Virus record (IMG/VR): IMGVR_UViG_3300034375_001313
Location: 1-21,619 of that record
Direction: 5' to 3' (one strand)
DNA: 21,619 nucleotides
Source: a virus
Under the pieces are notes generated by a model. It was given only the letters and a program-made list of their open reading frames with translations. It made no database searches and was not told the origin of the DNA. Shown piece after piece: positions 7,071 through 21,356 of this stretch. Made by a program: the position numbers and the translations under genes. Position 1 is the first letter of the stretch. Every line of letters starts with the position of its first letter.

Positions 7071-9050
7071 ATGGCAACAGATATTGAAAAGCTACAAATT
7101 GCGATTGAGACGGTAGGCACAAAAGCCGCTCAAAAAGAGCTTACCAGAATGAAGAAAGCCGCTGATGAAGCGGCAAACGGCGTTGATGGATTAAATAAAC
7201 AAACGAAAAAAGCTCCTCCTCTCTTAAAAGGATATAGGGGCGCAACCTCAGCTCTAACTAATACTACTGGTCAATTATCTGTTCAGTTGCAGGATGTTGC
7301 AGTCCAAGCACAAATGGGTACTGATGGCCTCCGCATATTCGCGCAACAGGGGCCGCAGATTGCCTCTATCTTTGGCCCAACTGGTGCTGTCGTCGGTGCA
7401 TTGATTGCAGTCGGCGCGATCATTGCAGGGCCGTTTGTCAATAGCTTGCTAGCCGCCAACGAACAGCTCGAAAAGGCAACAAAAGGTCTTGAGGGGGTCA
7501 AAGATAAGATATATGAGCTGACCGAAGCTGAAAAAGCGGCGAGGGGAGCAATACTTGCTCGGCAAATGCGCGAAACTAGAGAAGCAATCAAGCAAGCAGA
7601 AGAATCTTTACAAGATGCAATAAGCACGAATCAGACCTTCCAGAAGGGCGGGAAAGATGTTGCGTCTATTTACTACCAACTAAAAAACGGAGTCATCGAT
7701 TACGATGAAGCTCTTGCTCAATCAAGCGAAGAATTGTTGATAGCGCAAGCTAACGTAGAAGATCAAAAACAGGCTTACAAAGAACTGTCGGATATTTTTG
7801 ACATATTAACCGGCAAGGTTGACGAGGAAACGGAAGCTCAGAAGCGCAGGAAAAAGGCTGTTGAGGAAACTCTCAATCAAGGAAGAATACAAGTAGCTAC
7901 CCTTAGAATGAGCGCAATCGAGGCAGAGCTGTTTAGGTTTTCATTGCAAGGTGCTACTGAAGATCAGATCAAGGCTCGTCGAGCGCAGTTAGAGGCTACT
8001 GCGGCATTTAAGGCAGATCAAGAGGCCAAAAAGAAAGCAGATCGAGAAGAAGAGGCTCGGAAGGCCGCCCGCAAGAGTTACATTGAGTCATTAGAACTAC
8101 AATCTCAAAAGCAAGGTAAATCTGTATTCCAGCAGATCATGGCAACAGCCGCGACAAAAAATCTCAACGACGAGCAGATGAAGCGAGTAACGATTGCGGC
8201 AGTAAGAATACAACAGCAAATTGATGAACAAGAGCGTCAGAAAGAGCTAAATGATGAACAGCGCGAATCATTGCGAATTAGTCAACAGGTAGCCGCCGCC
8301 AGACAGAGAGAGCAAGAGGCGTTAAAGCAAGCTCAGTTAGAGCTGGCAAAAGCCTTTGAAGACGATAGAAATAAGGCGATTGCTGAGTTACGTCAAGCTG
8401 GCCTATTGGAAGAGGAGAGGTTGCAAGACCTTTCGTACCAAAGACAACTAGATAAGCTCAAATTATTCCTTGCTCAGAAAAGCATTACTGAGGAAGAGTT
8501 TGGTGAAGCAAAGAAAAAGCTAGACAAGAAGACTCAAGATGCCGCAATCAAGACTGCGGCTGATGGCCTTCAGGCTTTGGGTCAATACAACAAGACAGCA
8601 TTTGAAGCGCACAAGGCTTACGCATCGGGCAAGGCGGTTATGGATACTTATGCCGCCGCAACAAAAGCATTTGCAGAGATTCCGCTCCCGTGGAGTATCG
8701 CGGCGGCGGCAGGGATCGTAGCAATGGGATTAGCCAACGTAGCATCAATTCAGTCACAACAATATCAGGGCCGTGCGCTTGGTGGGCAGGTTCGTGGTGG
8801 TCAAACCTATGTTGTCGGAGAACGTGGCCCAGAACTGCTGACGATGGGCGGAAGCGGCACTGTCACCCCGAATGAGAAACTCAGGGGTTCTACTGGCACT
8901 CAGTCTGTGTCAGAGACAGTCAATATTAACTTCCAGATCACTGCGAATGATGCATCAGGATTCGATCAACTTCTTGTCGCAAGACGAGGTATGATTGTCA
9001 GCATGATTAACCAAGCAATGAATAATCGTGGAAGGAGAGGCTTAGTATGA
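7071..9050 (+). CDS. Tail tape measure protein
   Basis: 659 residues, the longest gene of the tail tube block. The N-terminal part has a tape-measure pattern: MATDIEKLQIAIETVG with KAADEAANGVDGLNK, then SVQLQDVAVQAQMGTDGLRI-like and FAQQGPQIASIFG, followed by a hydrophobic segment at about 103-125. Residues about 130-480 are charged helices rich in Gln, Glu, Lys and Ala. A second hydrophobic segment follows at about 541-560 (WSIAAAAGIVAMGLANVASI), then RALGGQVRGGQTYVVGERGP, a conserved C-terminal mark of lambda H-like tape measures, and a final part with SETVNINFQITAND. It sets tail length, is carried in the tube and is thought to enter the cell envelope with the DNA. Its stop overlaps the next start (ATGA). 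Confidence 0.93.
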   Translation: MATDIEKLQIAIETVGTKAAQKELTRMKKAADEAANGVDGLNKQTKKAPPLLKGYRGATSALTNTTGQLSVQLQDVAVQAQMGTDGLRIFAQQGPQIASIFGPTGAVVGALIAVGAIIAGPFVNSLLAANEQLEKATKGLEGVKDKIYELTEAEKAARGAILARQMRETREAIKQAEESLQDAISTNQTFQKGGKDVASIYYQLKNGVIDYDEALAQSSEELLIAQANVEDQKQAYKELSDIFDILTGKVDEETEAQKRRKKAVEETLNQGRIQVATLRMSAIEAELFRFSLQGATEDQIKARRAQLEATAAFKADQEAKKKADREEEARKAARKSYIESLELQSQKQGKSVFQQIMATAATKNLNDEQMKRVTIAAVRIQQQIDEQERQKELNDEQRESLRISQQVAAARQREQEALKQAQLELAKAFEDDRNKAIAELRQAGLLEEERLQDLSYQRQLDKLKLFLAQKSITEEEFGEAKKKLDKKTQDAAIKTAADGLQALGQYNKTAFEAHKAYASGKAVMDTYAAATKAFAEIPLPWSIAAAAGIVAMGLANVASIQSQQYQGRALGGQVRGGQTYVVGERGPELLTMGGSGTVTPNEKLRGSTGTQSVSETVNINFQITANDASGFDQLLVARRGMIVSMINQAMNNRGRRGLV

Positions 9051-9616
9051 GCTATCCAACTGATCCAGAGTTTCAGTCAGTCAATTTCAGGTCTAATTCT
9101 CCGGTTACCTCTAATACATCTATCTCAGGGAAGCGCACAGTTCGCTCATTAAATTCTCAGAGATGGGAGTTTTCAGCTAGATATGACAGGCTTACTAAGG
9201 CAGAGTTTGGCCCTGTGTACGCATTTCTTGTTTCGCAGGGCGGTCAGTTTGGAGAGTTTTCAGTCACTCCAACAGAAATTAGTTCGGCTCGCGGGACTGC
9301 CAGCGGCACTTGCACGATTACTTCTGGGGCCAGCGCAGGAGCAACAACTGTATCTGTGGGGCTTACTGGGACTTTACTTAAAGGTGATTTAGTCAAGTTC
9401 TCCAACCATACAAAGGTCTACATGGTTACAGAGGATCGTAGCGGCAATGGAACGCTGACAATATTTCCTGCTTTGCTTCAGGCTGTGACAACATCTCATA
9501 CGGTTGTCTATGATGATGTGCCGGTGCAGGTAAGATTGGTCAATGATATTCAGGAATTTGAGTTAAACTCTAACAATCAGTATACGTTTGAAGTTGATTT
9601 TAGAGAGTCTTACTAA
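9047..9616 (+). CDS. Distal minor tail protein, first tail tip gene
   Basis: 189 residues, directly after the tape measure in an ATGA overlap. The beginning, YPTDPEFQSVNFRSNSPV and RSLNSQRWEFSARYDRLTKA, followed by FGPVYAFLVSQGGQFGEFSV, is the type of beta-rich start seen in minor tail proteins after the tape measure (lambda gpM-like position). Residues about 85-165 form an extra module with ASAGATTVSV, LLKGDLVKFSN and YMVTEDRSGNGTLTI, which looks like the inserted domain of this phage's own coat protein. The chain returns to VQVRLVNDIQEFELN and ends FEVDFRESY. It probably connects the tube end to the tip hub. Confidence 0.75.
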   Translation: MSYPTDPEFQSVNFRSNSPVTSNTSISGKRTVRSLNSQRWEFSARYDRLTKAEFGPVYAFLVSQGGQFGEFSVTPTEISSARGTASGTCTITSGASAGATTVSVGLTGTLLKGDLVKFSNHTKVYMVTEDRSGNGTLTIFPALLQAVTTSHTVVYDDVPVQVRLVNDIQEFELNSNNQYTFEVDFRESY

Positions 9617-10170
9617 TGGCACGGACTATCAATTCCAGCACTCTTGCTTCGTTTCAGTCGGACTCTTCATACATTCTGCATCTAGTCAGCGTTGACCTGA
9701 CGACGACTGTTATACGATATACATCTGCACCTATCGACGTGACTTACAACTCAAATACTTACACAGCAAGCGAGCTATTTGTGAATGTAGGAGGGGTGGC
9801 GCAAAGCTCCACGTTGCAAAACAATCAGTTGGGCATTTCTATATCCACTGCCGAAGGTAGTTTTGCACAGTATATGCAGACGTATAACTGGCACAACGGC
9901 GAAGTTCTTTACTATCTAGCCGCTTGTGATTCTTCGTCATCTATCATTGGTAGTCCAGTCCTGATGTTTAAGGGTCTTTTGTCCACTTGGAGTCTAAGCG
10001 AAGAAGATGGCAGTCAATTAGAGTTGACAGCGGACTCTCATTGGGCTGACTTTGAAAGAATTGGCGGAAGGAGAACAAACACCAATTCACAGCATCAATA
10101 TGATTCAGCGGATGATGGGATGGACTTTGCCGCAGAAGCCGTTCGTGACATGAAGTGGGGTGTTGCGTAA
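9616..10170 (+). CDS. Minor tail / baseplate hub protein (DUF2163-like)
   Basis: 184 residues. It starts MARTINSSTLASFQSDSSYI and continues with beta strands such as VDLTTTVIRYTSAPIDVTYN and a YLAACDSS-type strand, then MFKGLLSTWSLSEEDGSQL. The end, with SHWADFERIGGRRTNTNSQH and a following DDGMDFA...KWG, is the most conserved part: the GRRTN-SQxxxxxxDxGxxFA pattern is common in phage hub proteins of the DUF2163 kind. Position (after the distal tail protein, before the J-like protein) equals lambda gpL. It ends with TAATG overlap with the J-like gene. Confidence 0.7.
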   Translation: MARTINSSTLASFQSDSSYILHLVSVDLTTTVIRYTSAPIDVTYNSNTYTASELFVNVGGVAQSSTLQNNQLGISISTAEGSFAQYMQTYNWHNGEVLYYLAACDSSSSIIGSPVLMFKGLLSTWSLSEEDGSQLELTADSHWADFERIGGRRTNTNSQHQYDSADDGMDFAAEAVRDMKWGVA

Positions 10171-13100
10171 TGGGTCTAATAGACAATCTTTGGAAAGAAA
10201 CAAAAAGTAATCTTAACTTCAATGCCGCCACTAGCGGTGTTAGAAATACCTTTAAGGCGGCTGGCGGTTTATTAAACAATCCGCTAGAAGAAATTAACGG
10301 CGGGTTCACCGAGCTAGTCGAGCTGTTTGTTGATATTCCTGATTTTGGCGATTTTTCTGCTTCCCAACGATCAGCTTTACTGAATAAGCAAGCCAATGAT
10401 GCTCACATACCTGTCATCTATGGTGAGCGTAGAGTCGGCGGCGTTCGTGTTTTCATGGAGACGGGCGGCACGGATAATCAGTATTTGTACATTGCATTAG
10501 TGCTATGTGAAGGGCCGGTACATTCTATTGGCGACATTTATATTGACGATGTTCTTTCCACAGATTCTCAGTTTTCAGGTCTGGTTACGATTGACAAGAA
10601 GACTGGTGAATCAAATCAGACAGCTAGCACAACTCTGACAGAAGCTACATCTTGGACTTCTACTCACAAATTGAGCGGCCTTGCTTATCTTGGTATTCGG
10701 CTGAAGTACGACTCAAATGTGTTTTCTGGGCTACCGAATATCCAAGCAGTCGTAAAAGGACGCAAAATATATGATCCACGCAAGGATAGTACGTCTGATG
10801 GGTATGACAGTTTACTTGGTGTAAGTACGCATCGTGAAAATGATGTTACAACGTGGGAATGGACTGACAACAATGTCATTTGTTTGCGCGACTATTTGTT
10901 CGATGATAACTACGGCAAAGGCATTCCCTCGTCGGAGATTGACGACGTATCAGTCAAAGTAGCCGCCAATCTCATTGACACATCGGTGACGGAATATACT
11001 GGAGCATCAGGCACTACAAACCTTTATAACTGCAACATGGTTGTCGATACGAGCGTTCAAATATTCAGTAACGTAGCGGCCATGCTGAAAAGCTTCAGAG
11101 GAATGCTTCCGTACAGTAATGGCGTGTATAAGATCATTGTGGACGATGATCCTGCGTCCAGTACCTTTACGTTCGATGCTGACAATATCGCTTCTGGAAT
11201 CTCAGTACAAAGTACATCCCGCAAGGATAGATATAATCGCGTCATTGCTAACTTTGTAAACAAAGAAAAGAATTATGAGCCTGATGAGGTGAGTTATCCA
11301 GAGACAGGTAGCGCAGAACATACTGCATTCTTAGTTGCAGATAATAACTTCATACAAGAAACAACGATTGATCTTCCTGCTACAACATCAGTCTATCAGG
11401 CTAGAGATATAGCTAAGATTGCGCTGGAATTTAGTCGTTCGCAGAATTTAACTGTTAGTTTTACCGCTCATCAAAATCTAACAAGCCAGAACCCAAATGC
11501 CACTTGCCTCGTATGTGAAGTAGGCGACAAGGTGGTGCTGAACTATCCAGCCCTTAACTTCTCTAACAAGGAGTTTAAGGTCAGGGCAATGACAATCAAT
11601 AACGACAGCTCGTGTAGCTTTACTTTATTAGAGCATGACGACACGCTCTACACTTGGTACGAGGATGACGAGGTTGCCACTGTAACTCCGCCTACGATAA
11701 GCGTGCCGAAGGTTGAGTTCATCAAGAATCCGATCACTCCATCAATACCCACTTTGACTGTTGAAACTGAGACAGATACGGATGGCGCAAGCAAAAGATA
11801 TTTGTTGTTCACTGCAACTTCATCGACATACGAGTTTACCGATTACTATGAAATTAACTACCGCATAGGAACTTCAGGGGATTACTCAACGGTATTCCAG
11901 AAGAGTCCTCGATTTATCTTATATGGATTTACCGCAGGTAGCACTTATCAGTTTTATTACAGGATAATTGATAGATTTGGTGTTGCAAGTAACGCATCAG
12001 CAACCGTTGGATTCACAACAACTGTTGCTCATCAGAATGATTACAACGGGACAAGAATTGTTGCGGGGTCGCTAACAGGAACACAAGTAGAGGATGATTC
12101 ACTTCCATTTGAAAAGACTGAAGCATTCTCAGCTAAATCATACGGTGGCACAGTTGCAAATCCTCATTACAAAGGATATGTCGGGCCAGCGGGTTCTGGA
12201 TCAGGATTTGAAGCCTCTTCTTTCGCAATAGGCGGAAAGGGATACGATAACGACTCTGGAACCGCTATTAAAGGCGGAGTCATAGGTTACGCTGAGTTGG
12301 GGCCAGCTCTTCAGGCGATTACAGAAAACAGCAATAGTTATGGACACAGCGATTTTTACGGTGCGGCTACTTTACTGGGCGGGTATGTTTATGGAAGCCC
12401 GCCGAAGTTTACTTCTGATGTAAGACTTGCGTATATGAATATGGGCGGAGATTTTGTTCTCGGCGCACAAGAAGCCGCTCAAACTATATTTAGTACAGCA
12501 ACCACTAACCCAGTTAGGGTCAACATGGTCAGCTCACAAGGCTGGGGCGATGGTGATGTAATTTATATAACTGGCGTTTCTGGAATGACGCAATTAAACG
12601 GAAACAGCTATTACATTAAGAAAATAAGCGGGGTTGCTCCTGCGTTCGATCTATACACAGATATAGATTTAACAGTTTCCGTAGACGGTACATCGTGGTC
12701 TGCCGGAAGTGGAGGCACGGCCCAAAACTTATCAAGACCGGAGTTAATAACTTCAGGAACATCTTTTACCCCTGCCGCGCACGTTCGGATTGCTTGGTTA
12801 TATGGAACTGCTTATTCGATTTATACGTTCCAAGGTACAACAGGGCCATTTACAGCATCGCACGATGGCTTAATAGATAGAACGCTAGCTCAGCCTGAGA
12901 TTGGCGATATTGTTGTGGATATTGATGTGTTCGCTTCTCCTAACGTCAATGACTGTATTACTACGATGAAAGTAAGCTCAGAAGCAAACCAAGTCGGAGT
13001 TATAGGAGTATGTGCGGGATACAATGATCGAGGGTTTATCCCTGCTTCTTTAGCTAAGACAACCAAGCAAACTGGTAATGAACCCAGCGAAGGGATAAAA

Positions 13101-13370
13101 GTTACTTTAAAAGATGAATACGCAAACCTTCCAGATCAATATTCGATGATAGCTGTCAACTCTATCGGTGAAGGGAAAATCAACGTCTGCGGTCAGGCGG
13201 GGAATATCTCTGTTGGAGACTTAATTGTCGCATCTGATATGCAGGGTAAAGGTATGAAGCAGAGTGATGATATAATTCGCTCGTACACGGTAGCTAAATC
13301 ACGCGAGAATGTGACGTTCGCATCCGCTGATGAGGTTAAACAAATCGCTTGTATTTACTTAGGTGGATGA
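10170..13370 (+). CDS. Central tail tip / host specificity protein, lambda J-like
   Basis: 1,066 residues from ATG 10170, whose A is the last base of the previous TAA; GTG 10155 in the same frame is less likely. Around residues 84-100 the pattern YGERRVGGVRVFMETGG followed by YLYIALVLCEGPV is typical of J-like tip proteins, as are KIYDPRKD and VICLRDYLFDDNYGKG. Residues about 525-617 form a fibronectin type III-like domain ending in YQFYYRIIDRFGVASN. A Gly-rich part follows. Residues about 775-855 resemble the small FCCH-like beta domain common in phage fibres (GWGDGDVIYITGVSGMTQLN). The last 180 residues contain IAVNSIGEGKINVCGQAGNI, then VGDLIVASDMQGKGMKQ, a terminal domain seen in environmental phage tail proteins. 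It closes the tube and triggers DNA release on receptor contact. Confidence 0.9.
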   Translation: MGLIDNLWKETKSNLNFNAATSGVRNTFKAAGGLLNNPLEEINGGFTELVELFVDIPDFGDFSASQRSALLNKQANDAHIPVIYGERRVGGVRVFMETGGTDNQYLYIALVLCEGPVHSIGDIYIDDVLSTDSQFSGLVTIDKKTGESNQTASTTLTEATSWTSTHKLSGLAYLGIRLKYDSNVFSGLPNIQAVVKGRKIYDPRKDSTSDGYDSLLGVSTHRENDVTTWEWTDNNVICLRDYLFDDNYGKGIPSSEIDDVSVKVAANLIDTSVTEYTGASGTTNLYNCNMVVDTSVQIFSNVAAMLKSFRGMLPYSNGVYKIIVDDDPASSTFTFDADNIASGISVQSTSRKDRYNRVIANFVNKEKNYEPDEVSYPETGSAEHTAFLVADNNFIQETTIDLPATTSVYQARDIAKIALEFSRSQNLTVSFTAHQNLTSQNPNATCLVCEVGDKVVLNYPALNFSNKEFKVRAMTINNDSSCSFTLLEHDDTLYTWYEDDEVATVTPPTISVPKVEFIKNPITPSIPTLTVETETDTDGASKRYLLFTATSSTYEFTDYYEINYRIGTSGDYSTVFQKSPRFILYGFTAGSTYQFYYRIIDRFGVASNASATVGFTTTVAHQNDYNGTRIVAGSLTGTQVEDDSLPFEKTEAFSAKSYGGTVANPHYKGYVGPAGSGSGFEASSFAIGGKGYDNDSGTAIKGGVIGYAELGPALQAITENSNSYGHSDFYGAATLLGGYVYGSPPKFTSDVRLAYMNMGGDFVLGAQEAAQTIFSTATTNPVRVNMVSSQGWGDGDVIYITGVSGMTQLNGNSYYIKKISGVAPAFDLYTDIDLTVSVDGTSWSAGSGGTAQNLSRPELITSGTSFTPAAHVRIAWLYGTAYSIYTFQGTTGPFTASHDGLIDRTLAQPEIGDIVVDIDVFASPNVNDCITTMKVSSEANQVGVIGVCAGYNDRGFIPASLAKTTKQTGNEPSEGIKVTLKDEYANLPDQYSMIAVNSIGEGKINVCGQAGNISVGDLIVASDMQGKGMKQSDDIIRSYTVAKSRENVTFASADEVKQIACIYLGG

Positions 13371-13371
13371 T

Positions 13372-13707
13372 ATGGCTGATCCAATCAAACTCGTACAAGG
13401 GGATACAGCCCCGCAAATCAAAGCAACTGTAACCCGTAGCGACACAGGCGATGCTGTTGACGTGTCTGATGCAACAGTAAAGCTCCATTTCCGTAGAAAG
13501 TTCTCTGAAACTGTATTGTTCTCACTGACCAACCAAGGCACATCCGATCAGGCCGCAGATGGCATTTGTATCTTTGTCTTTGCCGCAGGGAATCTTGATC
13601 TTGATGCTGGGGAGTATGAAGGTGAGATTGAGGTTCTGTTCAATGGTGGAACCCGTGAAACAGTGTATGAAACACTTAACTTCTTAATGAGAGAAGACTT
13701 CCAGTGA
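13372..13707 (+). CDS. BppU N-terminal-like / Ig-like baseplate protein
   Basis: 111 residues from ATG 13372, preceded by AGGTGG at 13361-13366; GTG 13363 in frame is the alternative. The start MADPIKLVQGDTAPQIKATV, then DAVDVSDATVKLHFRRK and the end LDAGEYEGEIEVLFNGGTRE plus VYETLNF, shows the small beta sandwich seen at the N-terminus of BppU-type baseplate proteins. In lactococcal phages this domain ties receptor-binding proteins to the tail tip. Here it is a stand-alone protein, so it may act as an adaptor between the J-like tip and the repeat fibre coded right after it, with which it overlaps (GTGA). Confidence 0.75.
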   Translation: MADPIKLVQGDTAPQIKATVTRSDTGDAVDVSDATVKLHFRRKFSETVLFSLTNQGTSDQAADGICIFVFAAGNLDLDAGEYEGEIEVLFNGGTRETVYETLNFLMREDFQ

Positions 13708-15047
13708 GTTTGAGCCTATCGGCGGCTATTGTTGCTAAGAGAATACTAGCCGCAATATCCGCTGGTAGGGTAAAGGCCGCTATATCAGCGGGACGAGTCC
13801 TTGCTTCTATCACCGCAAGCAGGATTAGCGCATCTGTAACAGCCGCACAACTTCAAGTTGCGATTGTTATTGGCCGGTTCATTGAGATATTGAGGACTCA
13901 AGACAATGTGTCTGTGTCTCAGATATTCAGTTTATTATTCGTCAAGAGATTATCTGACTCAGCAGACCTGACAGATGAACATACAATCGATTACGGTAAG
14001 AATGAGTCAGAATCTATTGGCGTTACGCAACTAGCCGCCAAGTCTGTATCTAAGCCAGAGACAGACGCCTTCTCAGCATCAGATGACAGCACGATTGCGT
14101 ACGGCAAGAATCCAATCGAGTTTCCTAATCTCACAGAACAGGCTGTATTTTCATTCGGTAAATCTTTATCTGACACAGTAAACGCCACTGATGACGTTGA
14201 TGGTAACGCAACCATCGAAGACGATCAGAATATGACGTACAACAAGATACGTCTAAATACAGCACAGGTTGCAGAGGCTCACGCGATTGATTTTGTCAGG
14301 GGGCCAATATCTGACGCATTTAGCGCATCCGATCTGCACTCACTGGCGTATGGCAAGGTTGTTAATGATAGCGGTGCGCTGACAGACTCAAACACCGTAG
14401 ACTTTGGCAAGGCTCCATCTGATTCAGCCAACCTCACAGAGACACAGGAATTTGACCTAGGTACTGTCAAAACAGACTCAGCAAGCGTAACTGAAGCGCA
14501 TGAAGTGTCATTTAGGTTTGTACAGGCCGATACAAGCTCTCTAGCGGACGATCACGCTGTTTCCTATGGCAGTATCCAAGCTGACTTAGGAAGCGTCACA
14601 GAGAGCATTTCAAACAGCCCAAGTAAAGTTCTGACTGACTCTGGTTCATTTACAGATGACTCTGTGTTTAATGTCGGCAAGAACCCATCTGATTCAGGAT
14701 CGCTATCTGATCTGCACGTTGTCGATCTATCGAAGACACTAACTGACTCTGGCTCTGTTGCTGAGTCCTTTAGTCGAGTTGTAGCGTTTAGCCGATCATT
14801 TACTGAGACGATTTACGTTACAGATGATGTAAATGGTGCGGCAGTCGATGATGACCAGAACGCACAATTCTTCAAGAATCTTACAAACATTGGTTATACC
14901 TCTGATTCAGAGGTAAAATCAGTGGGTAAGAACCCGTCCGACTCTGCAAATTTCACGGAGTCAGGCGCGTATGAAGTGCAAGATTACGTTGATACGATGA
15001 CGTATTTTGCTGAAAACTATGTCGGGACTACCGGCTCATTGTTCTAA
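13704..15047 (+). CDS. Repeat-built tail fibre-like protein (9- and 18-residue repeats)
   Basis: 447 residues from GTG 13704 overlapping the previous stop. Residues 7-60 are six units of nine residues of the form A-[AS]-[IV]-x-A-x-R-[IV]-x. Residues 84-429 are eighteen units of mostly 18 residues with consensus [ST]DSx(x)[LVF]T[DE]xxxx(F/Y)GKxP. Two units (156-183 and 365-393) are longer by 10-11 residues and share DDVDGNA.(I)EDDQN and DDVNGAAVDDDQN. The C-terminal tail ends TTGSLF. No Cys is present. Such a regular, Ser/Asp/Thr-rich chain suggests an extended trimeric beta shaft or a lattice protein on the tail tip. Position between a BppU-like adaptor and the S74 fibre supports a fibre or linker. 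I know similar DSxSxTDxF repeats from environmental phage proteins, but not a named family. Confidence 0.78.
   Translation: MSLSLSAAIVAKRILAAISAGRVKAAISAGRVLASITASRISASVTAAQLQVAIVIGRFIEILRTQDNVSVSQIFSLLFVKRLSDSADLTDEHTIDYGKNESESIGVTQLAAKSVSKPETDAFSASDDSTIAYGKNPIEFPNLTEQAVFSFGKSLSDTVNATDDVDGNATIEDDQNMTYNKIRLNTAQVAEAHAIDFVRGPISDAFSASDLHSLAYGKVVNDSGALTDSNTVDFGKAPSDSANLTETQEFDLGTVKTDSASVTEAHEVSFRFVQADTSSLADDHAVSYGSIQADLGSVTESISNSPSKVLTDSGSFTDDSVFNVGKNPSDSGSLSDLHVVDLSKTLTDSGSVAESFSRVVAFSRSFTETIYVTDDVNGAAVDDDQNAQFFKNLTNIGYTSDSEVKSVGKNPSDSANFTESGAYEVQDYVDTMTYFAENYVGTTGSLF
13722..13883 (+). repeat. Six tandem 27-bp units coding nine-residue repeats
   Basis: Units (residues 7-60): AAIVAKRIL, AAISAGRVK, AAISAGRVL, ASITASRIS, ASVTAAQLQ, VAIVIGRFI. 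Units two and three are identical in eight consecutive residues but use different synonymous codons at six of those eight, so the repeat is maintained at protein level. Confidence 0.85.
13953..14990 (+). repeat. Eighteen tandem ~54-bp units coding 18-residue repeats
   Basis: Reading from residue 84 the frame divides into units such as SDSADLTDEHTIDYGKNE, TDAFSASDDSTIAYGKNP, SDSANLTETQEFDLGTVK, TDSGSFTDDSVFNVGKNP and SDSGSLSDLHVVDLSKTL. Fifteen of eighteen are exactly 18 residues, one is 19, and units five and sixteen are 28-29 because of a DD(V)NG...DDQN insertion. The DNA units are diverged. Confidence 0.85.
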
Positions 15048-15059
15048 TAGGAGAACACC

Positions 15060-15506
15060 ATGCTACAAGATAGCTTGAAACTAAGTGGACGGGTCGGAAT
15101 TGTCCTACGAGACAAAGACGGCAATATCATTGACGAGCAGACGACTGAGAACTTGGTTGTCAACGATGGCCTGAACTTTATCTGTTCGCGGATGGAAGGC
15201 ACGAGCCAAGACGTTATGTCGCACATGGCTGTTGGCACAGACAACACTGCCGTAGCCGCAGGGGATACAACTCTGGGTACTGAACTGGCACGAGTTGCTT
15301 TGACTAGCACCACAGTCTCTACAAACACCATTGAGTACGTTGCTTCATATTCAGCGGGTACTGGTACAGGTGCTTTGGTTGAGGCAGGTATTTTCAATGC
15401 CGCGTCAGCAGGTGATATGTTATGCCATGTGGTTTTCGATGTTATCAACAAGGCCGCCGCCGATAGCATGACGATCACTTGGACGATCACACTGACTGCA
15501 TCTTAA
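15060..15506 (+). CDS. Conserved small tail/structural phage protein
   Basis: 148 residues from ATG 15060 with AGGAGA (15049-15054) upstream. Blocks: LKLSGRVGIVLRDKDGNI, ENLVVNDGLNFICSRM, MSHMAVGTDNTAVAAGDTTL, VEAGIFNAASAGDMLCHVVF and SMTITWTITLTA. I recognise this as a frequent phage structural protein: the MSHMAVGxxxTAxAAGDTxLGxEL and EAGIFNA blocks are highly conserved in phages of Gram-negative bacteria and usually annotated only as hypothetical or tail-associated. The fold appears to be a compact beta sandwich. It lies between two fibre genes and may be a cap or connector for the fibres; an enzymatic role is not suggested by the sequence. Confidence 0.7.
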   Translation: MLQDSLKLSGRVGIVLRDKDGNIIDEQTTENLVVNDGLNFICSRMEGTSQDVMSHMAVGTDNTAVAAGDTTLGTELARVALTSTTVSTNTIEYVASYSAGTGTGALVEAGIFNAASAGDMLCHVVFDVINKAAADSMTITWTITLTAS

Positions 15507-15529: not shown

Positions 15530-18500
15530 ATGGCTATTAAAACCCGCCAAACAGATGGTACTGGCGTAACCAATGAGAACGCTCCTCTGACTAATGAGGA
15601 ATTAGACAACAATTTCATCGAGCTAGTTGCTGAAGATGCTTTGAAAGCTAACCTGTCTGGGGCCGCTTTCACTGGTCAAGTCACTATCAGTACAAGCACT
15701 GAAAATGCGCTCGATATTCTTGCAGGAACGAACAATCAAAGACTGCTTAGATTAAGCCATCCAACATCCCCTACTGCGGCGGGGGGATACTTTGACTTTA
15801 ACTCCGATGGCACGACAGACGATAATGTTGTGACCTTTGGGGTAGAGTATTCTGGCACTGATTATGATGTGTTGAATATTCAGCGTTCAACCCAGCGCGT
15901 TGGCATAGGGACAATATCACCCTCCACTAATCTAGATGTTGTAGGGGCTAATAATAATACGTTTGACACTCCATACACAATTCTGCTTCAAGGCACTGAT
16001 GCGTACAATTCAGGAAACGCTGGATCAGGAATTGTTTTTACTGGGGAGTATAATTCATCTGAAGCTAGTACAACTTTTGCTACTATTTCTGGCGTTAAAG
16101 AAAATATAACCGATGGTAATTTTACTGGCGCACTTCTTTTCGGAACCCGCAAGAGCAGTGGGACGGATATAGAATCCATGCGAATAGACTCTAGTGGTAA
16201 CCTGCTAATTTCTGGAAGTAACACAACTCCAAATACCAATAGCGCAGGAACTACTGCTGATAATGAAATGGCACTGCGAAACGATGGATTAGCTTTGTTT
16301 AGTGCTTATAAAGCCACTACAAATGTTGGCGTGGTGATGGACATTAACCGCACAAGTACCGATGGGGGTATTCTTGGCTTCCGCAAAAACGGCACAACAG
16401 TCGGGTCGATTGGTACTAGAAATGGCTATCTCCACATTAGGACTGAGGCGGGAACAAACGGTTCTGGGATCAGATTTTCTGATGGGTATGTAATGCCTTG
16501 CGCTAGTGATGGCAGTAATAGTGATGCTACCACTGATTTAGGGTTGAGTGGTTCGCGCTTCAAAGACCTCTACCTATCAGGTGATAGCTACATTACATTC
16601 ACTGATGATAATAGTTTTTCAGCATCTACAAGCTCATGGCATAACATCATAGTAAGGAACACAAGCGAGAACGCCAATAATTCTTGCGGGATTGTCTTTG
16701 AGTTAAATGACACTTATCACCAGAACGCAGGAACAGGCATTGCGGCTGTAAAAGCAAATACTTCAAATGACTATGGTGCTGATCTAGTAATCATTACGCG
16801 CCCTGAATCTGCGGCGGCGGTAGAAAGGATGCGAGTAACGAATGATGGCAAAGTCGGGATAAACGAAGACGATCCATCCGCCAAATTGCACGTTAATTCA
16901 GGAACTATCGACAATGTTGCTATATTTGAAAGTACAGATCAGGCCGCAAGTATAAGATTAAAAGATAATTCAACTTATTCCGCAGTCAGCCAATCTGGAA
17001 GCAATTTTGATATAAGTTCTGACGCTGGGAACACGGATGATGATTCTAAGCTCAGATTGCTTACAGATGGTGCTGTCAGGGCTGAATTAAACAACATCGG
17101 TATGTATGCAAGTGAGTTTCGCGCAATCAATTTATTTGACCTAGCGGGCGGAACCGGCAACTCCTATGACCATCGAGTTATCTTACTTGCTCCGCTTATT
17201 ACGACTAGCACATCTCATCAAAACCGTGTCAATGGTCGTATTACGATGGCAAAGACCGGAGGTAATGTTTGCGACTTTTTTGATGTATACGTCAATAATG
17301 TCTACACCGATAATAGAGCGAGTTTTATATCACATGGGCAGAGAACTGGTCATAAGTTTGTTAGCTTTGACTATGACAATATTACTTGGTTGGGGATCGA
17401 GTTTGCGTACACAGCCAATCCATATAACGAAGCTTATTTCATCGGCCAAGCAATTACAGACATAAGTGGTGCGGCAGAACATCAATTAAAAGTCATTTCA
17501 TACAAAGATACGCAGTCTGGAACGACAGTTCTTAACCAAGAGATTTACGATTCGATTGCGGATTACACTCCAAACGGTTTAGCGAAAGTAGATACGTCTT
17601 CATCAAGTTTTCTAAGTGGGCCTGTGACAATCGACAATTCTGATGATGTTGGGCTGACTGTAAAGCAATCAGCTACAAGAGGCGGAATCCGATTAGGCGG
17701 CGGTAACGGGACAGGTAATCATCGGCTGTACTTCCAAGCGGATGCGTCAAACGCTTATATTGACAGCTATGGAGGGGATGCATACAACTCATTATCAATA
17801 GAGGCTAGCCCATTAAAACTAAACAATAGCAGTAACGGCGCAATAACCACAGGCTCAGGCCAATTTACATTCAGTGGCGGAAGCACTGGCAGTTATGGGC
17901 CGATTATAAGCTCTACGTCTACTGGTGGCCCTGCGATAAAACTAGACTCAAATGGCACAAACGGAAAAGAACTTTGGCTTATATCTAACGCAAGTGGGAA
18001 TACTGACGGTGGTGGAAGGTTCCAATTTTGGAATAATTCGGACAACAGAACATTTGCAACATTTGCCGCCAATGCCGGAGAAAGAACTAAGCTATATAAC
18101 CCTGTCGAAATTGCTCACACAAATTTATCAGCAGAGCCATATTCAGGGTTACATATTAAGAATACTAACTCCGCTAGTGGGGCGGCCTACACAGGTTTGT
18201 ATGTTGATGCCGCTATTCAATCTCACATTCGTCTTGCTACTGCGGGATCGCTTAAATGGCAGATGCGTACAGGCACGACTACGAGTGGTGAATTAAGATT
18301 CTATTCTTGGGACGGTAGTGCTGACGTATTTACACTTGCCAGTAATGGCAACGCTACTTTAACTGGCGAATTGACAGTCAACTCTGACGAGCGCATCAAA
18401 GACAACATCGAACAGATTGATGGTGCGCTTGAGAAAGTACAAGCTATTCGTGGTGTAACCTTCAACAGAACTGATACTGATGACGATACACGCCATGCAG

Positions 18501-18679
18501 GGGTAATCGCTCAAGAAGTAGAGAAAGTCCTGCCAGAAGTGGTCAAAGACGGCGAGGATGGTATTAAGTCAGTCGCCTACGCAAACATGGTCGGCCTACT
18601 CATCGAAGCGATTAAAGAACAGCAGACTCAGATTGACGATTTGAAGGCAGAAGTCACTCGACTGAAGGGGTTTGAATAA
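15530..18679 (+). CDS. Large tail fibre with C-terminal S74 self-cleaving chaperone domain
   Basis: 1,049 residues; GAGGAG at 15515-15520 precedes ATG 15530. The N-terminus, AIKTRQTDGTGVTNENAPLT with NEELDNNFIEL, is a common attachment end of phage fibres. The middle is beta-rich with repeated blocks such as RVGIGTISPSTNLDVVG (about 124) and KVGINEDDPSAKLHV (about 442), and SMRIDSSGNLLISG-type turns. From residue 952 the S74 peptidase/intramolecular chaperone domain begins: SDERIKDNIEQIDGALEKV, FNRTD, HAGVIAQEVEKVLPEVV and VAYANMVGLLIEAIKEQ, ending in a coiled coil. In this family the domain trimerises the fibre and cuts itself off before Ser952, with Lys957 as likely partner. Ends TAATG with the next gene. 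Confidence 0.92.
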   Translation: MAIKTRQTDGTGVTNENAPLTNEELDNNFIELVAEDALKANLSGAAFTGQVTISTSTENALDILAGTNNQRLLRLSHPTSPTAAGGYFDFNSDGTTDDNVVTFGVEYSGTDYDVLNIQRSTQRVGIGTISPSTNLDVVGANNNTFDTPYTILLQGTDAYNSGNAGSGIVFTGEYNSSEASTTFATISGVKENITDGNFTGALLFGTRKSSGTDIESMRIDSSGNLLISGSNTTPNTNSAGTTADNEMALRNDGLALFSAYKATTNVGVVMDINRTSTDGGILGFRKNGTTVGSIGTRNGYLHIRTEAGTNGSGIRFSDGYVMPCASDGSNSDATTDLGLSGSRFKDLYLSGDSYITFTDDNSFSASTSSWHNIIVRNTSENANNSCGIVFELNDTYHQNAGTGIAAVKANTSNDYGADLVIITRPESAAAVERMRVTNDGKVGINEDDPSAKLHVNSGTIDNVAIFESTDQAASIRLKDNSTYSAVSQSGSNFDISSDAGNTDDDSKLRLLTDGAVRAELNNIGMYASEFRAINLFDLAGGTGNSYDHRVILLAPLITTSTSHQNRVNGRITMAKTGGNVCDFFDVYVNNVYTDNRASFISHGQRTGHKFVSFDYDNITWLGIEFAYTANPYNEAYFIGQAITDISGAAEHQLKVISYKDTQSGTTVLNQEIYDSIADYTPNGLAKVDTSSSSFLSGPVTIDNSDDVGLTVKQSATRGGIRLGGGNGTGNHRLYFQADASNAYIDSYGGDAYNSLSIEASPLKLNNSSNGAITTGSGQFTFSGGSTGSYGPIISSTSTGGPAIKLDSNGTNGKELWLISNASGNTDGGGRFQFWNNSDNRTFATFAANAGERTKLYNPVEIAHTNLSAEPYSGLHIKNTNSASGAAYTGLYVDAAIQSHIRLATAGSLKWQMRTGTTTSGELRFYSWDGSADVFTLASNGNATLTGELTVNSDERIKDNIEQIDGALEKVQAIRGVTFNRTDTDDDTRHAGVIAQEVEKVLPEVVKDGEDGIKSVAYANMVGLLIEAIKEQQTQIDDLKAEVTRLKGFE

Positions 18680-19260
18680 TGGCAACTACATACGGTGCAA
18701 ATGGTCAGCAAGTCGTTCAGACTATAACCACATCAGACGTTGCGTTTTTTTTGATAAATTTAGAGCCTTATGTCAATCGGATCAGAGTCAACTATAAGAT
18801 GAAGGCCAATACACTGGGAACGCCATACATCAGATTCTTCAATGCCGCCAATACAAATGATGCGGCAACCCGAATGTATATTAAGGCGCATAATGTTGAT
18901 GAGGCTCCTACTGATACTCATACTTATTATACAAGTGGCACTGCGTTAAATCAGGAATTTCATTACGTTTCCTCTTTTTATCACAATGCTACTACAACTT
19001 ATCCTACTGATTTTTTGGATTTAACAGTCATCAGAACCAGTTACGATCATTTTTTTCAGCCCGCTTTCTTTTCCGAAGATAGTTACATAACCAGTTCTGG
19101 GACAAGACGTATTTCTCATGGCGGCGGCACTATATCCTATCGCTCATCGGCAGATGAAGAACCTTTGGGGATGTTGATTGGCTTTAACAATAATGGTCAA
19201 TTTGCAAAGGCAAATGTTAAGCATTGGGTGGAAGGCCAAGTTTTTGAGGGCGTAAACTGA
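18679..19260 (+). CDS. Putative receptor-binding / fibre tip protein 1 (unknown family)
   Basis: 193 residues, starting in a TAATG overlap with the S74 fibre. The composition is rich in Thr, Ser, Tyr, Phe, Asn and Gly and the pattern is beta throughout. Motifs: VNRIRVNYKMKANTLGTPYI, then RFFNAANTNDAATRMYI, and a late HGGGTISYR. No Cys and no membrane segment. The block V-RI...I-FF-AAN also appears, loosely, in the next gene (VTRIEF...IMDFYDASNN), so both may share a jelly-roll type fold. Position behind the fibre and before a fibre-assembly chaperone makes a receptor-contact role the best guess. I do not recognise the family. Confidence 0.65.
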   Translation: MATTYGANGQQVVQTITTSDVAFFLINLEPYVNRIRVNYKMKANTLGTPYIRFFNAANTNDAATRMYIKAHNVDEAPTDTHTYYTSGTALNQEFHYVSSFYHNATTTYPTDFLDLTVIRTSYDHFFQPAFFSEDSYITSSGTRRISHGGGTISYRSSADEEPLGMLIGFNNNGQFAKANVKHWVEGQVFEGVN

Positions 19261-19817
19261 TGGCTTTCAATCTTGTCAGGGAGGGGTTTGACTATAATGC
19301 TAGACAAAGCGTTACTACAAGCAGTCCGACTACGACAGAATTTAATGTAGATATTCCATCTGGAGACAGGGTTACGAGAATTGAGTTTCAGTGTTACCCA
19401 TCAAGCTCAACTGGGACAATAGACCCAATCATGGATTTTTATGATGCTAGCAACAACCAGTTACGTTGGACGGGAAATTACAGGACTCATCGAGGCGGAT
19501 CAACTCGGGGGCATTCTTCATCACTTAACAACTTAAATTCTGTATTCTTAGGCGGCTTTCAAATTGATAATTCACCAAGTTACCACTCAAATTGGTTTAT
19601 CGAGGTAACAAATCTATCTGGATACAACACGAACGTCATGTTTCGCGGATCGTACAATTCAACAACCACTGGGTACGAAACTATGATTTACGGGGCTGTA
19701 AGGATTGGAGGAGCCAATGGTTCTGTTGTTGAAGTCAGAAAGGTAACTCTTTCTCTTTTTGGCGGTACAGCATTTGATGTTGCTAATTATATCAGCATCG
19801 TGGGGATTGATTTGTAA
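19260..19817 (+). CDS. Putative receptor-binding / fibre tip protein 2 (unknown family)
   Basis: 185 residues, starting in TGATG overlap with the previous gene and ending in TAATG with the next. It holds VTRIEFQCYPSSSTGTIDPI, MDFYDASNNQLRW, a Gly/Ser/His loop (THRGGSTRGHSSS), SNWFIEVTNLSGYNTNVMF and a C-terminal VRKVTLSLFGGTAFDVA strand pair. The WFIEVTN block and an ending of the form I..G(G)T..V...I.GI resemble carbohydrate-binding tip domains of environmental phage proteins, which I judge by pattern only. One Cys (in FQCYP). Function inferred from context. Confidence 0.65.
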   Translation: MAFNLVREGFDYNARQSVTTSSPTTTEFNVDIPSGDRVTRIEFQCYPSSSTGTIDPIMDFYDASNNQLRWTGNYRTHRGGSTRGHSSSLNNLNSVFLGGFQIDNSPSYHSNWFIEVTNLSGYNTNVMFRGSYNSTTTGYETMIYGAVRIGGANGSVVEVRKVTLSLFGGTAFDVANYISIVGIDL

Positions 19818-20428
19818 TGGCGATCTTTACTGGTTCAGGATTTGATTGGGTACAACTGCTAGAAGTTAGTGATACATCAAGCGAATATGAAACAGAACAC
19901 ATCATCTCTTGGAATGAATATGTAGAGTCTGGCACTGTTACGGAAGGGACATATATGATTTATATATGCTATACCCAAGCAACAGTTGATGGCACAACTA
20001 GTCTAAATACACAAAATGCTAGCCCAAGCTTCCAGATGATGAATCAAGGCACTGCCTTGCCTACGACTTTTTTTACTATCTCTTGGCATAATGGTTTTAA
20101 TTGGACTTATAACTCTACTGAAAGCTCTGCCACAGCGCAAAGATTCTTTTCTGGAACAAATCCGACTTTCCCTAGCACATTACACAGTGTTGTTGTAAGA
20201 ATGGAATTGCGACTAGAGGTTGGCAATTGTGCCTATCGTGGACAAGTAGTAGGGCCGATATGTCCAGACAAAGGTAGGCCAATTCAAGGATACTTTCATG
20301 GGCGAGTACATGACTATACTAATCTTCCAACGAATATGAGATTGTTCACTTTTACTAGCAGTATTGGTAGTGACGTATACTTCCCAAGGTGCGTTGCAAG
20401 TGCATATCGAATGAATACTTCATGGTGA
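19817..20428 (+). CDS. Putative receptor-binding / fibre tip protein 3 (unknown family)
   Basis: 203 residues, starting in TAATG overlap. It begins MAIFTGSGFDWVQLLEVSDT and contains TYMIYICYTQATVDGTTSLN, ISWHNGFNWTYNSTESS, a region VVVRMELRLEVGNCAYRGQV, then GPICPDKGRPIQGYFHGRVH and a final YRMNTSW. It is rich in aromatic residues and Thr/Ser, with four Cys. It has little visible similarity to the two preceding genes apart from length and composition. A receptor-contact or fibre cap role is inferred from the place just before the fibre chaperone. No known motif was recognised. Confidence 0.62.
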   Translation: MAIFTGSGFDWVQLLEVSDTSSEYETEHIISWNEYVESGTVTEGTYMIYICYTQATVDGTTSLNTQNASPSFQMMNQGTALPTTFFTISWHNGFNWTYNSTESSATAQRFFSGTNPTFPSTLHSVVVRMELRLEVGNCAYRGQVVGPICPDKGRPIQGYFHGRVHDYTNLPTNMRLFTFTSSIGSDVYFPRCVASAYRMNTSW

Positions 20429-20432
20429 TTAT

Positions 20433-20681
20433 ATGATTGAAGAAGGACAATACCCCCCAACTCCTGCGCGTGATGACTTGCCAGATGAGTCAACAGCAGA
20501 GATAAATCGCGTCAATAGAGATTATCTGCTAGAGCAATCAGATTGGACGCAACTCTCTGATGTAAATCAGCAGACTCGCTATGCGTATGTTGGCTATCGT
20601 CAGGCTTTGCGTGATCTTCCCGATCATCCAAACTGGCCTCGGTTAGCAGTAGAGGATTGGCCTAAAAAACCAAACGTCTGA
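20433..20681 (+). CDS. Tail fibre assembly chaperone-like protein
   Basis: 82 residues. The core NRDYLLEQSDWTQLSDVN...YRQALRDLPDHPNWP...WPKKP closely follows the C-terminal motif RDxLLxxxDWTQLPD...YRxxLRDL...PxNPxWPxxP of phage tail fibre assembly (Tfa-type) and related chaperones. Most such proteins are longer; here only this small domain is present after an acidic, Pro-rich N-terminus (EEGQYPPTPARDDLPDES). It directly follows the fibre tip genes and would help fold or attach one of them. ATG 20433 has no good ribosome site, so coupling to the preceding stop (20426-20428) is likely. Confidence 0.78.
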   Translation: MIEEGQYPPTPARDDLPDESTAEINRVNRDYLLEQSDWTQLSDVNQQTRYAYVGYRQALRDLPDHPNWPRLAVEDWPKKPNV

Positions 20682-20906: not shown

Positions 20907-21356
20907 ATGATCTTTGAAGCCATAGCCGCTATCAAGATCGCAAACGAGGCTATCGGCGCAATCAAAGAGTTTGCAGGTCACATTCAATCTGTTGGTGAGA
21001 TGGGGCCGCAACTTACTAAACTCGCTGATGCTAAAGGCGAAATAGAAAAGAAAGCTAAAGATGGCGACATGGATGCTTTTTTTGCCTTGGAAGATATTCG
21101 TAAGAAAGAAGCTGAAATTAAGCAAATGTTTATCTATAACGGTCGGGCAGGACTGTGGGATGACTACCAGAAGTTCATAGCTAACCGTAAGCAAATGCGG
21201 GAGAACGAAAAGAAACGTGCAGAAGCTAAAGCACTGGCTCGTAAAAAAGCCATACAGAATGGATTTTTGTATGGTGCTGTTGGCATTGCTGTTCTCGGTG
21301 CTGTGGGCGGGGCCGTGGCCCTATTACTGTGGCTTATTAGCCTTAAAGGTAAGTAA
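20907..21356 (+). CDS. Membrane-anchored phage protein of unknown function (possible lysis accessory)
   Basis: 149 residues. An N-terminal amphipathic part (IAAIKIANEAIGAIKEFAGH), a central charged helical part with KLADAKGEIEKKAKDGDMDA and LEDIRKKEAEIKQMFIYNG, then GLWDDYQKFIANRKQMREN, and a C-terminal membrane helix at about 120-144 followed by SLKGK. Similar proteins with this AKxxxEK...FxxxEDIRKxExEIK pattern and one late membrane helix occur in environmental phages as hypotheticals. A holin, spanin or envelope role can be imagined, but no motif decides it; there is no N-terminal signal peptide or lipobox, which argues against a classic o-spanin. Confidence 0.6.
   Translation: MIFEAIAAIKIANEAIGAIKEFAGHIQSVGEMGPQLTKLADAKGEIEKKAKDGDMDAFFALEDIRKKEAEIKQMFIYNGRAGLWDDYQKFIANRKQMRENEKKRAEAKALARKKAIQNGFLYGAVGIAVLGAVGGAVALLLWLISLKGK

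Follow-up and report, generated by a model that had tools for sequence, protein, structure and literature searches.

A hypervariable three-gene cassette between an S74 tail fibre gene and a fibre chaperone gene, exchanged as a block among uncultivated siphoviruses

Three overlapping genes at the end of a tail operon

The stretch of DNA analysed here in full (21,619 nt from an IMG/VR virus record; hereafter the window) represents the structural half of a siphovirus, with the head genes first and the tail operon after them (Table 1). At the end of the tail operon, between an S74 fibre gene and a Phage_tail_APC chaperone gene, lies a cassette of three tandem genes (18679-20428). A preliminary description based on sequence alone had reported open reading frames of 193, 185 and 203 residues joined by one-base overlaps, and these are present as claimed: at the cassette junctions a single base belongs both to the stop codon and to the ATG that follows (TAATG, TGATG, TAATG). 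The junction between the fibre and gene 1 is likewise a one-base overlap, which is seen in all four alleles described below, and the chaperone gene begins 4 bases past gene 3. The composition of the three window proteins also agrees with the richness in aromatic, threonine and serine residues noted at the outset (aromatic residues, 12.4-14.5%; Ser+Thr, 18.7-23.2%).

The genes on both sides of the cassette have recognisable families. The upstream protein matches tail fibre families in PHROGs, with E-values down to 2.2e-33, and ends in an S74 domain (PF13884, E=3.8e-17, 62.8 bits, gathering cut-off 22). Domains of this family are self-cleaving intramolecular chaperones that trimerise the fibre and are then removed. 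The downstream protein matches the fibre-assembly chaperone family PF16778 (E=3.6e-14, 52.8 bits, gathering cut-off 26.6), as expected from its earlier designation as a fibre chaperone, and two further small genes lie beyond it in the window.

Table 1. Features of the window and sizes of the cassette proteins in its diverged relatives
Feature	Positions	Strand	Remarks
Tape measure	7071-9050		
Distal tail protein	9047-9616		
J-like tail hub	10155-13370		
Repeat protein	13704-15047		447 aa
Conserved small gene	15060-15506	+	phrog_5417; 95% identical in L011; anchor for finding relatives
Tail fibre	15530-18679	+	1049 aa; C-terminal S74 domain, residues 952-1006
Cassette gene 1 (slot 1)	18679-19260	+	193 aa; without known family
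N-terminal motif, gene 1	18679-18720	+	Gly at residue 9
Cassette gene 2 (slot 2)	19260-19817	+	185 aa; without known family
N-terminal motif, gene 2	19260-19301		like that of gene 1
Cassette gene 3 (slot 3)	19817-20428	+	203 aa; predicted beta-sandwich of galectin/ConA type (low confidence)
N-terminal motif, gene 3	19817-19858		like that of gene 1
Fibre-assembly chaperone	20433-20681	+	82 aa; Phage_tail_APC (PF16778)
Small downstream gene	20907-21356		149 aa
L011 cassette proteins			202/183/197 aa
L016 cassette proteins			195/185/196 aa
L090 cassette proteins			193/195/201 aa

The cassette layout is kept in diverged relatives

Four contigs in IMG/VR match the window almost exactly, with 1, 1, 17 and 30 differences across 6.6-16.6 kb, and three diverged relatives, L011 (the same contig as L091), L016 and L090, were located through neighbouring genes. 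All three diverged contigs preserve the order of fibre, three genes encoding 183-202 residues, and chaperone; for L016, the ATG at 2846 was taken as the start of gene 1 for lengths, overlap and comparisons. Because this layout is kept in three relatives whose cassettes lack DNA similarity to that of the window, it is unlikely to have arisen by chance. A degenerate pattern describing the end of the S74 gene recovered seven contigs, namely the four near-identical and the three diverged ones, each of which carries a cassette (7/7). The cassette is therefore represented by four alleles, all from metagenomes, a count that rests on this pattern and a chaperone scan, the S74 scan being incomplete in that it missed known members.

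Two sequence differences among the near-identical contigs were also seen. At position 19280 in gene 2, the window differs from all four by one base that leaves the protein unaltered. Contig L004 differs from the window at 29 positions within 15128-15433, where the conserved small gene meets the edge of the contig, and then at one position in 6 kb; this cluster represents either a recombination edge or the end of a chimeric assembly.

The cassette proteins match no known family

The preliminary description recognised no family among the three proteins, and our searches were in accord with this. None of the window proteins matched Pfam (E<=1) or PHROGs, and this included the lectin family Laminin_G_3 (PF13385). 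The nine proteins of the diverged relatives likewise gave no Pfam match at cut-off, Laminin_G_3 included, and in PHROGs only matches with E>=0.086, all to families of unknown function. At the nucleotide level, blastn of the cassette against 50,697 phage records returned no match, and tblastn against cultured phages at E<=1 returned nothing for the three window proteins or for three of those nine.

Profiles built for each of the three gene positions, or slots, gave nothing below E=0.32 against all PDB chain sequences and, against the open reading frames of loci L001-L293, detected no member beyond the four alleles at E<0.01; an open reading frame among the tail genes of L009/L010 reached E=0.013 with the slot 1 profile. 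Nine bacterial genomes that carry related capsid genes contained no match to slot 1 or slot 3, and 394 genomes from a single family contained none to slot 1 in a search run without a positive control. Single genes that follow other S74 fibres (for example in L142, L145 and L187) were considered as members and set aside, as they do not match the slot profiles. A literature search limited to titles and the openings of abstracts found no three-gene cassette of this kind. We regard the cassette as genuinely new and hypervariable, and its proteins as lacking a known family.

Cassette alleles are replaced as a block

The preliminary description had proposed comparing related genomes for replacement of exactly this block. 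In L011, the DNA aligns with the window up to 18727 and again from 20541 on, with corresponding edges at 18688 and 20536 in L016, and at 18689 and 20534 in L090. In all three diverged relatives, homology thus breaks around the cassette, the edges falling just inside gene 1 and inside the chaperone gene, such that the three genes are replaced together. The replaced block is slightly larger than the one foreseen, as it extends ~100 bases into the chaperone gene.

This boundary is reflected in the proteins. Cassette proteins are 18-33% identical between alleles (19-33% with a second aligner), whereas the S74 end is 82-99% identical and the 149-aa gene downstream is 81-91% identical between window and relatives. 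The chaperone itself is divided, with 76-84% identity between alleles in its C-terminal 55 residues and differing N-terminal ~35 residues.

In a comparison of the window with L090, dN in the cassette (0.84-1.05) exceeds dS in the flanks (0.31-0.63), although at about 25% identity such estimates depend on an uncertain alignment; the contrast is weaker in pairs with L016, for which dS of the S74 end is 1.03-1.53. Change in place would require that amino-acid changes be fixed faster than neutral sites change next door, and import of versions that had already diverged is thus the simpler explanation for the window-L090 pair. Sequence comparison therefore gives good support to the view that pre-diverged versions of the cassette have been exchanged.

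The cassette is not the sole variable part of these genomes, because the fibre body is also replaced and the tape-measure and tail-tip genes of L011 have diverged. In the relatives, the fibre N-terminus and S74 end are conserved and the body between them (about 15912-18370) is exchanged, with 24-34% identity. L011 carries in addition a second mosaic block, extending from the tape measure to the hub (7071-13370), that is only 40-60% identical to the window, while the genes flanking it are 90-100% identical and two small genes just before it 68-77% identical. The cassette thus appears to belong to a wider variable region concerned with host recognition.

Three slots share an N-terminal motif

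Between the window and its relatives, protein identity is 21-33% for slot 1, 19-28% for slot 2 and 18-28% for slot 3. Slot kinship was evaluated by a leave-one-out procedure in which the allele of the tested protein was excluded from the slot models, with 200 shuffles of each protein as controls. The correct slot gave the best score for 12/12 proteins. The window proteins of genes 1, 2 and 3 scored 51.8, 15.0 and 29.2 bits, respectively; the slot 3 protein of L011 (A3) was a near tie (6.5 versus 6.1 bits), and with the model of their own slot the other 11 proteins exceeded all 200 of their shuffles.

A weak block common to the first two proteins had been pointed out previously. The gene 2 protein of the window (W2) indeed scores 10.2 bits against a slot 1 model built without the window allele, a value reached by 0/200 shuffles, and the profiles of slots 1 and 2 align with an hhalign score of 30.8, whereas none of 60 column shuffles exceeded 15.4. 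Slots 2 and 3 score 20.2 (at most 16.2 in column-shuffled controls), and the alignment of slots 1 and 3 does not rise above column shuffles, even untrimmed. After removal of the first 14 residues, the score for slots 1 and 2 falls to 15.5, which 4/60 shuffles equal or exceed, and no slot pair stands out, so that paralogy between slots is not supported beyond the N-terminus. The block therefore rises above shuffled controls as a signal that rests mainly on a common N-terminal motif.

The motif consists of a glycine at residue 8 or 9, which 12/12 cassette proteins of the four alleles possess, with a hydrophobic residue after it in 11/12; 0/20000 shuffles were as good. Judging from the sequences, the motif may indicate either that the three proteins descend from one ancestor or that they use a common docking or assembly element.

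Predicted folds of the gene 1 and gene 3 proteins

A fold search had been suggested in the preliminary description, which regarded all three proteins as rich in beta patterns. The products of genes 1 and 3 were each modelled alone using AlphaFold2 and four-sequence alignments, and both are predicted to be all beta, with no helix of at least 4 residues and with low-confidence N-termini. The gene 3 model is a weak one (mean pLDDT 57.6, pTM 0.61) that forms a beta-sandwich, and the gene 1 model is poor (mean pLDDT 44.9).

Among the matches listed for the gene 3 model are sialidase accessory domains, levanase accessory domains and galectins (VIA Z 8.8-10.1; rmsd 3.3-4.8 over 124-163 aligned residues). 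Foldseek placed legume lectins first (E=5.8e-4, TM about 0.3), with TM-scores of only about 0.3-0.4 overall. Matches to viral models were mostly uncharacterised phage proteins, several of them 172-206 residues long. The gene 1 model returned a similar list of lectin-type folds (Z up to 7.3), which carries little weight at its pLDDT. At low confidence, the gene 3 protein is thus predicted to resemble lectins of the galectin/ConA type. A common fold alone is not evidence of function, and neither catalytic nor sugar-binding residues were recognised in the cassette proteins.

Parallels among characterised and metagenomic phages

In phages of the T2/S16 type, a small variable adhesin gene (gp38) lies directly downstream of the long fibre gene (gp37), and its product occupies the fibre tip (PMC7289586; PMC6851490). 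The cassette genes resemble gp38 in lying directly downstream of an S74 fibre gene, with the one-base overlap, but differ from it in number, with three adhesin-like genes instead of one. The S16 fibre has a C-terminal intramolecular chaperone (PMC7289586; PMC6851490), and the S16 polyglycine domain contains over 50% Gly (PMC6851490). Such a domain is absent from the 12 cassette proteins, which contain 4.9-10.4% Gly and at most 5 Gly per 10 residues. Nor is a helical attachment domain with a conserved Trp visible, although the N-termini of the gene 1 and gene 3 models are of low confidence.

A second parallel concerns fibre chaperones of the TFA/APC type. The chaperone of the Pam3 gp24-gp25 complex binds the fibre through a non-conserved N-terminal domain and trimerises through a conserved C-terminal domain (PMC9608196). 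This is reminiscent of the chaperone studied here, whose N-terminus is replaced with the cassette and whose C-terminus is kept. The Pam3 client is one TNF-like and Gly-rich fibre, whereas in the window the fibre and chaperone genes are separated by three small ones. The host recognition module of Alteromonas phages A5/V22/P24, also made up of fibre and chaperone, is shared and exchanged between phages of marine bacteria (PMC10579305); it comprises one fibre and a DUF4376 chaperone of other families, and has no three-gene cassette.

Several metagenomic loci resemble the window in plan but not in sequence. Following an S74 fibre, the marine contigs L164 (1923-4671) and L162 (2061-3442) carry four and two tandem genes, respectively, of 215-235 residues, 5/6 of which reach the cut-off for Laminin_G_3, a ConA-like lectin family. 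Unlike the window cassette, to which they have no match at E<0.01, these genes are clear paralogues with Laminin_G_3 domains, and from their sequences they may represent another multi-lectin tip design. Three tandem paralogues follow the S74 fibre in L191 (6330-8752), the second and third overlapping by one base, and in L231 (714-3212) three such genes separate an S74 fibre from an APC chaperone. A general enrichment of tandem paralogues after S74 fibres was tested and is not significant (12/154 adjacent pairs versus 2/67 elsewhere; Fisher p=0.24; 69 S74 loci, L231 not among them).

Locus L199 (1354-3323) shows a further arrangement, in which two paralogues of 260 and 261 residues with Gly-Pro repeats, together with a 135-aa open reading frame, directly follow an S74 fibre; by eye, the bodies of the paralogues look intein/Hint-like, which we take as a provisional assignment.

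A proposed role in receptor binding

The fibre body is typically a part of the phage that sets host range. In view of the tail-operon position, the kept layout, the block swap, the covariation with the fibre body, the lectin-like models, the chaperone pattern and the parallel cases, we consider that the cassette probably encodes three small, distantly related beta-sandwich adhesins, positioned at the S74 fibre end or tail tip with the help of the chaperone and most likely reading glycans. The preliminary description had likewise proposed an exchanged receptor-binding cassette; the block exchange bears out one half of that proposal, and the binding role is one that we infer.

A possible course of events can be outlined. 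Coupled translation would yield the fibre, three adhesins and chaperone one after another. The S74 domain would trimerise the fibre before being removed, and its self-cleavage may expose the seat of the cassette proteins. The chaperone, with its cassette-linked variable N-terminus, would fold or mount the adhesins, for which the N-terminal motif might serve as the docking or assembly element. Once present in the virion, the adhesins would bind sugars and thereby recognise surface glycans, and recombination at the two conserved flanks, the S74 end and the chaperone end, would swap the whole set, with a putative change in host range. Rather tentatively, we further propose that the three separately encoded, different adhesins share one fibre or tail tip through the common docking motif as a combinatorial recognition head, and that the triplet and the client-binding end of the chaperone are swapped as one unit with exactly three slots, each having its own lineage.

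The location of the genes between fibre and chaperone, and the covariation of the cassette with the fibre body, would also suit a function in assembly, in which the three proteins serve the variable fibre as additional folding chaperones or as transient caps, without remaining in the mature virion, as with T4 gp38 or V22 gp27. We judge this unlikely, as the fibre already has an intramolecular chaperone in its S74 domain and a separate APC chaperone downstream. Three extra chaperones that each diverge over their full length as fast as the fibre body would also be unusual, given that known chaperones retain a conserved part, as the APC protein does here.

Small proteins in a tail operon that are modelled as all beta (genes 1 and 3) and have no proven ligand might instead be structural or decoration proteins of the tail tip that do not bind receptors, diversified by escape from, for example, host decoys or proteolytic defences. 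Divergence is confined, however, to the fibre body, the cassette and the tail-tip genes, which is the usual host-recognition region, and the neighbouring structural genes are highly conserved between the window and L011, making this explanation quite improbable. That the cassette comprises moron-type genes, as their unknown families and variability between close relatives might suggest, is very improbable, because morons are usually gained and lost readily and have a promoter of their own, whereas here there are always three genes in the same order, with the overlap at the fibre stop codon in four alleles, and no strongly hydrophobic N-terminal stretch is present (top 11-residue Kyte-Doolittle mean, 0.16-1.70).

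If the three proteins are indeed adhesins, the cassette would represent a receptor-binding design in which three small proteins in fixed slots are exchanged as a set, in uncultivated viruses of aquatic bacteria, and would add three new protein families whose role can be tested. Metagenomic predictions of host shifts could then use the block as a marker, and the system would offer a natural setting in which to ask whether a fibre chaperone follows its client by means of one variable end.

Affiliation of the virus and neighbouring genes

The tail hub of the window is similar to hubs of pelagiphages whose genomes measure 32 kb (HTVC202P, 34.6% identity over 56%) and of roseophages. Relatives of its chaperone in cultured phages are mostly found in Rhodobacterales phages, 15 of the 25 records being named Roseobacter or Lentibacter phage. 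Relatives of its capsid, at 55-65% identity, occur in nine bacterial genomes that include Loktanella, Brevirhabdus and Actibacterium, three which we take to be rhodobacterial. Because of these relatives, a Rhodobacterales host is a fair guess from sequence, no more.

Upstream of the conserved small gene, the 447-aa protein consists of repeats of the type DSANLTE.. and has one weak family match; it is possibly tail-associated. The 149-aa gene downstream of the chaperone encodes a protein with a hydrophobic C-terminus and is 97-99% identical in L219-L226, despite very different upstream genes. In one of the contigs nearly identical to the window (L001), a second, diverged copy of this gene (144 aa, E about 3e-14) lies downstream. 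It may be a mobile gene with a lysis function, passed from phage to phage.
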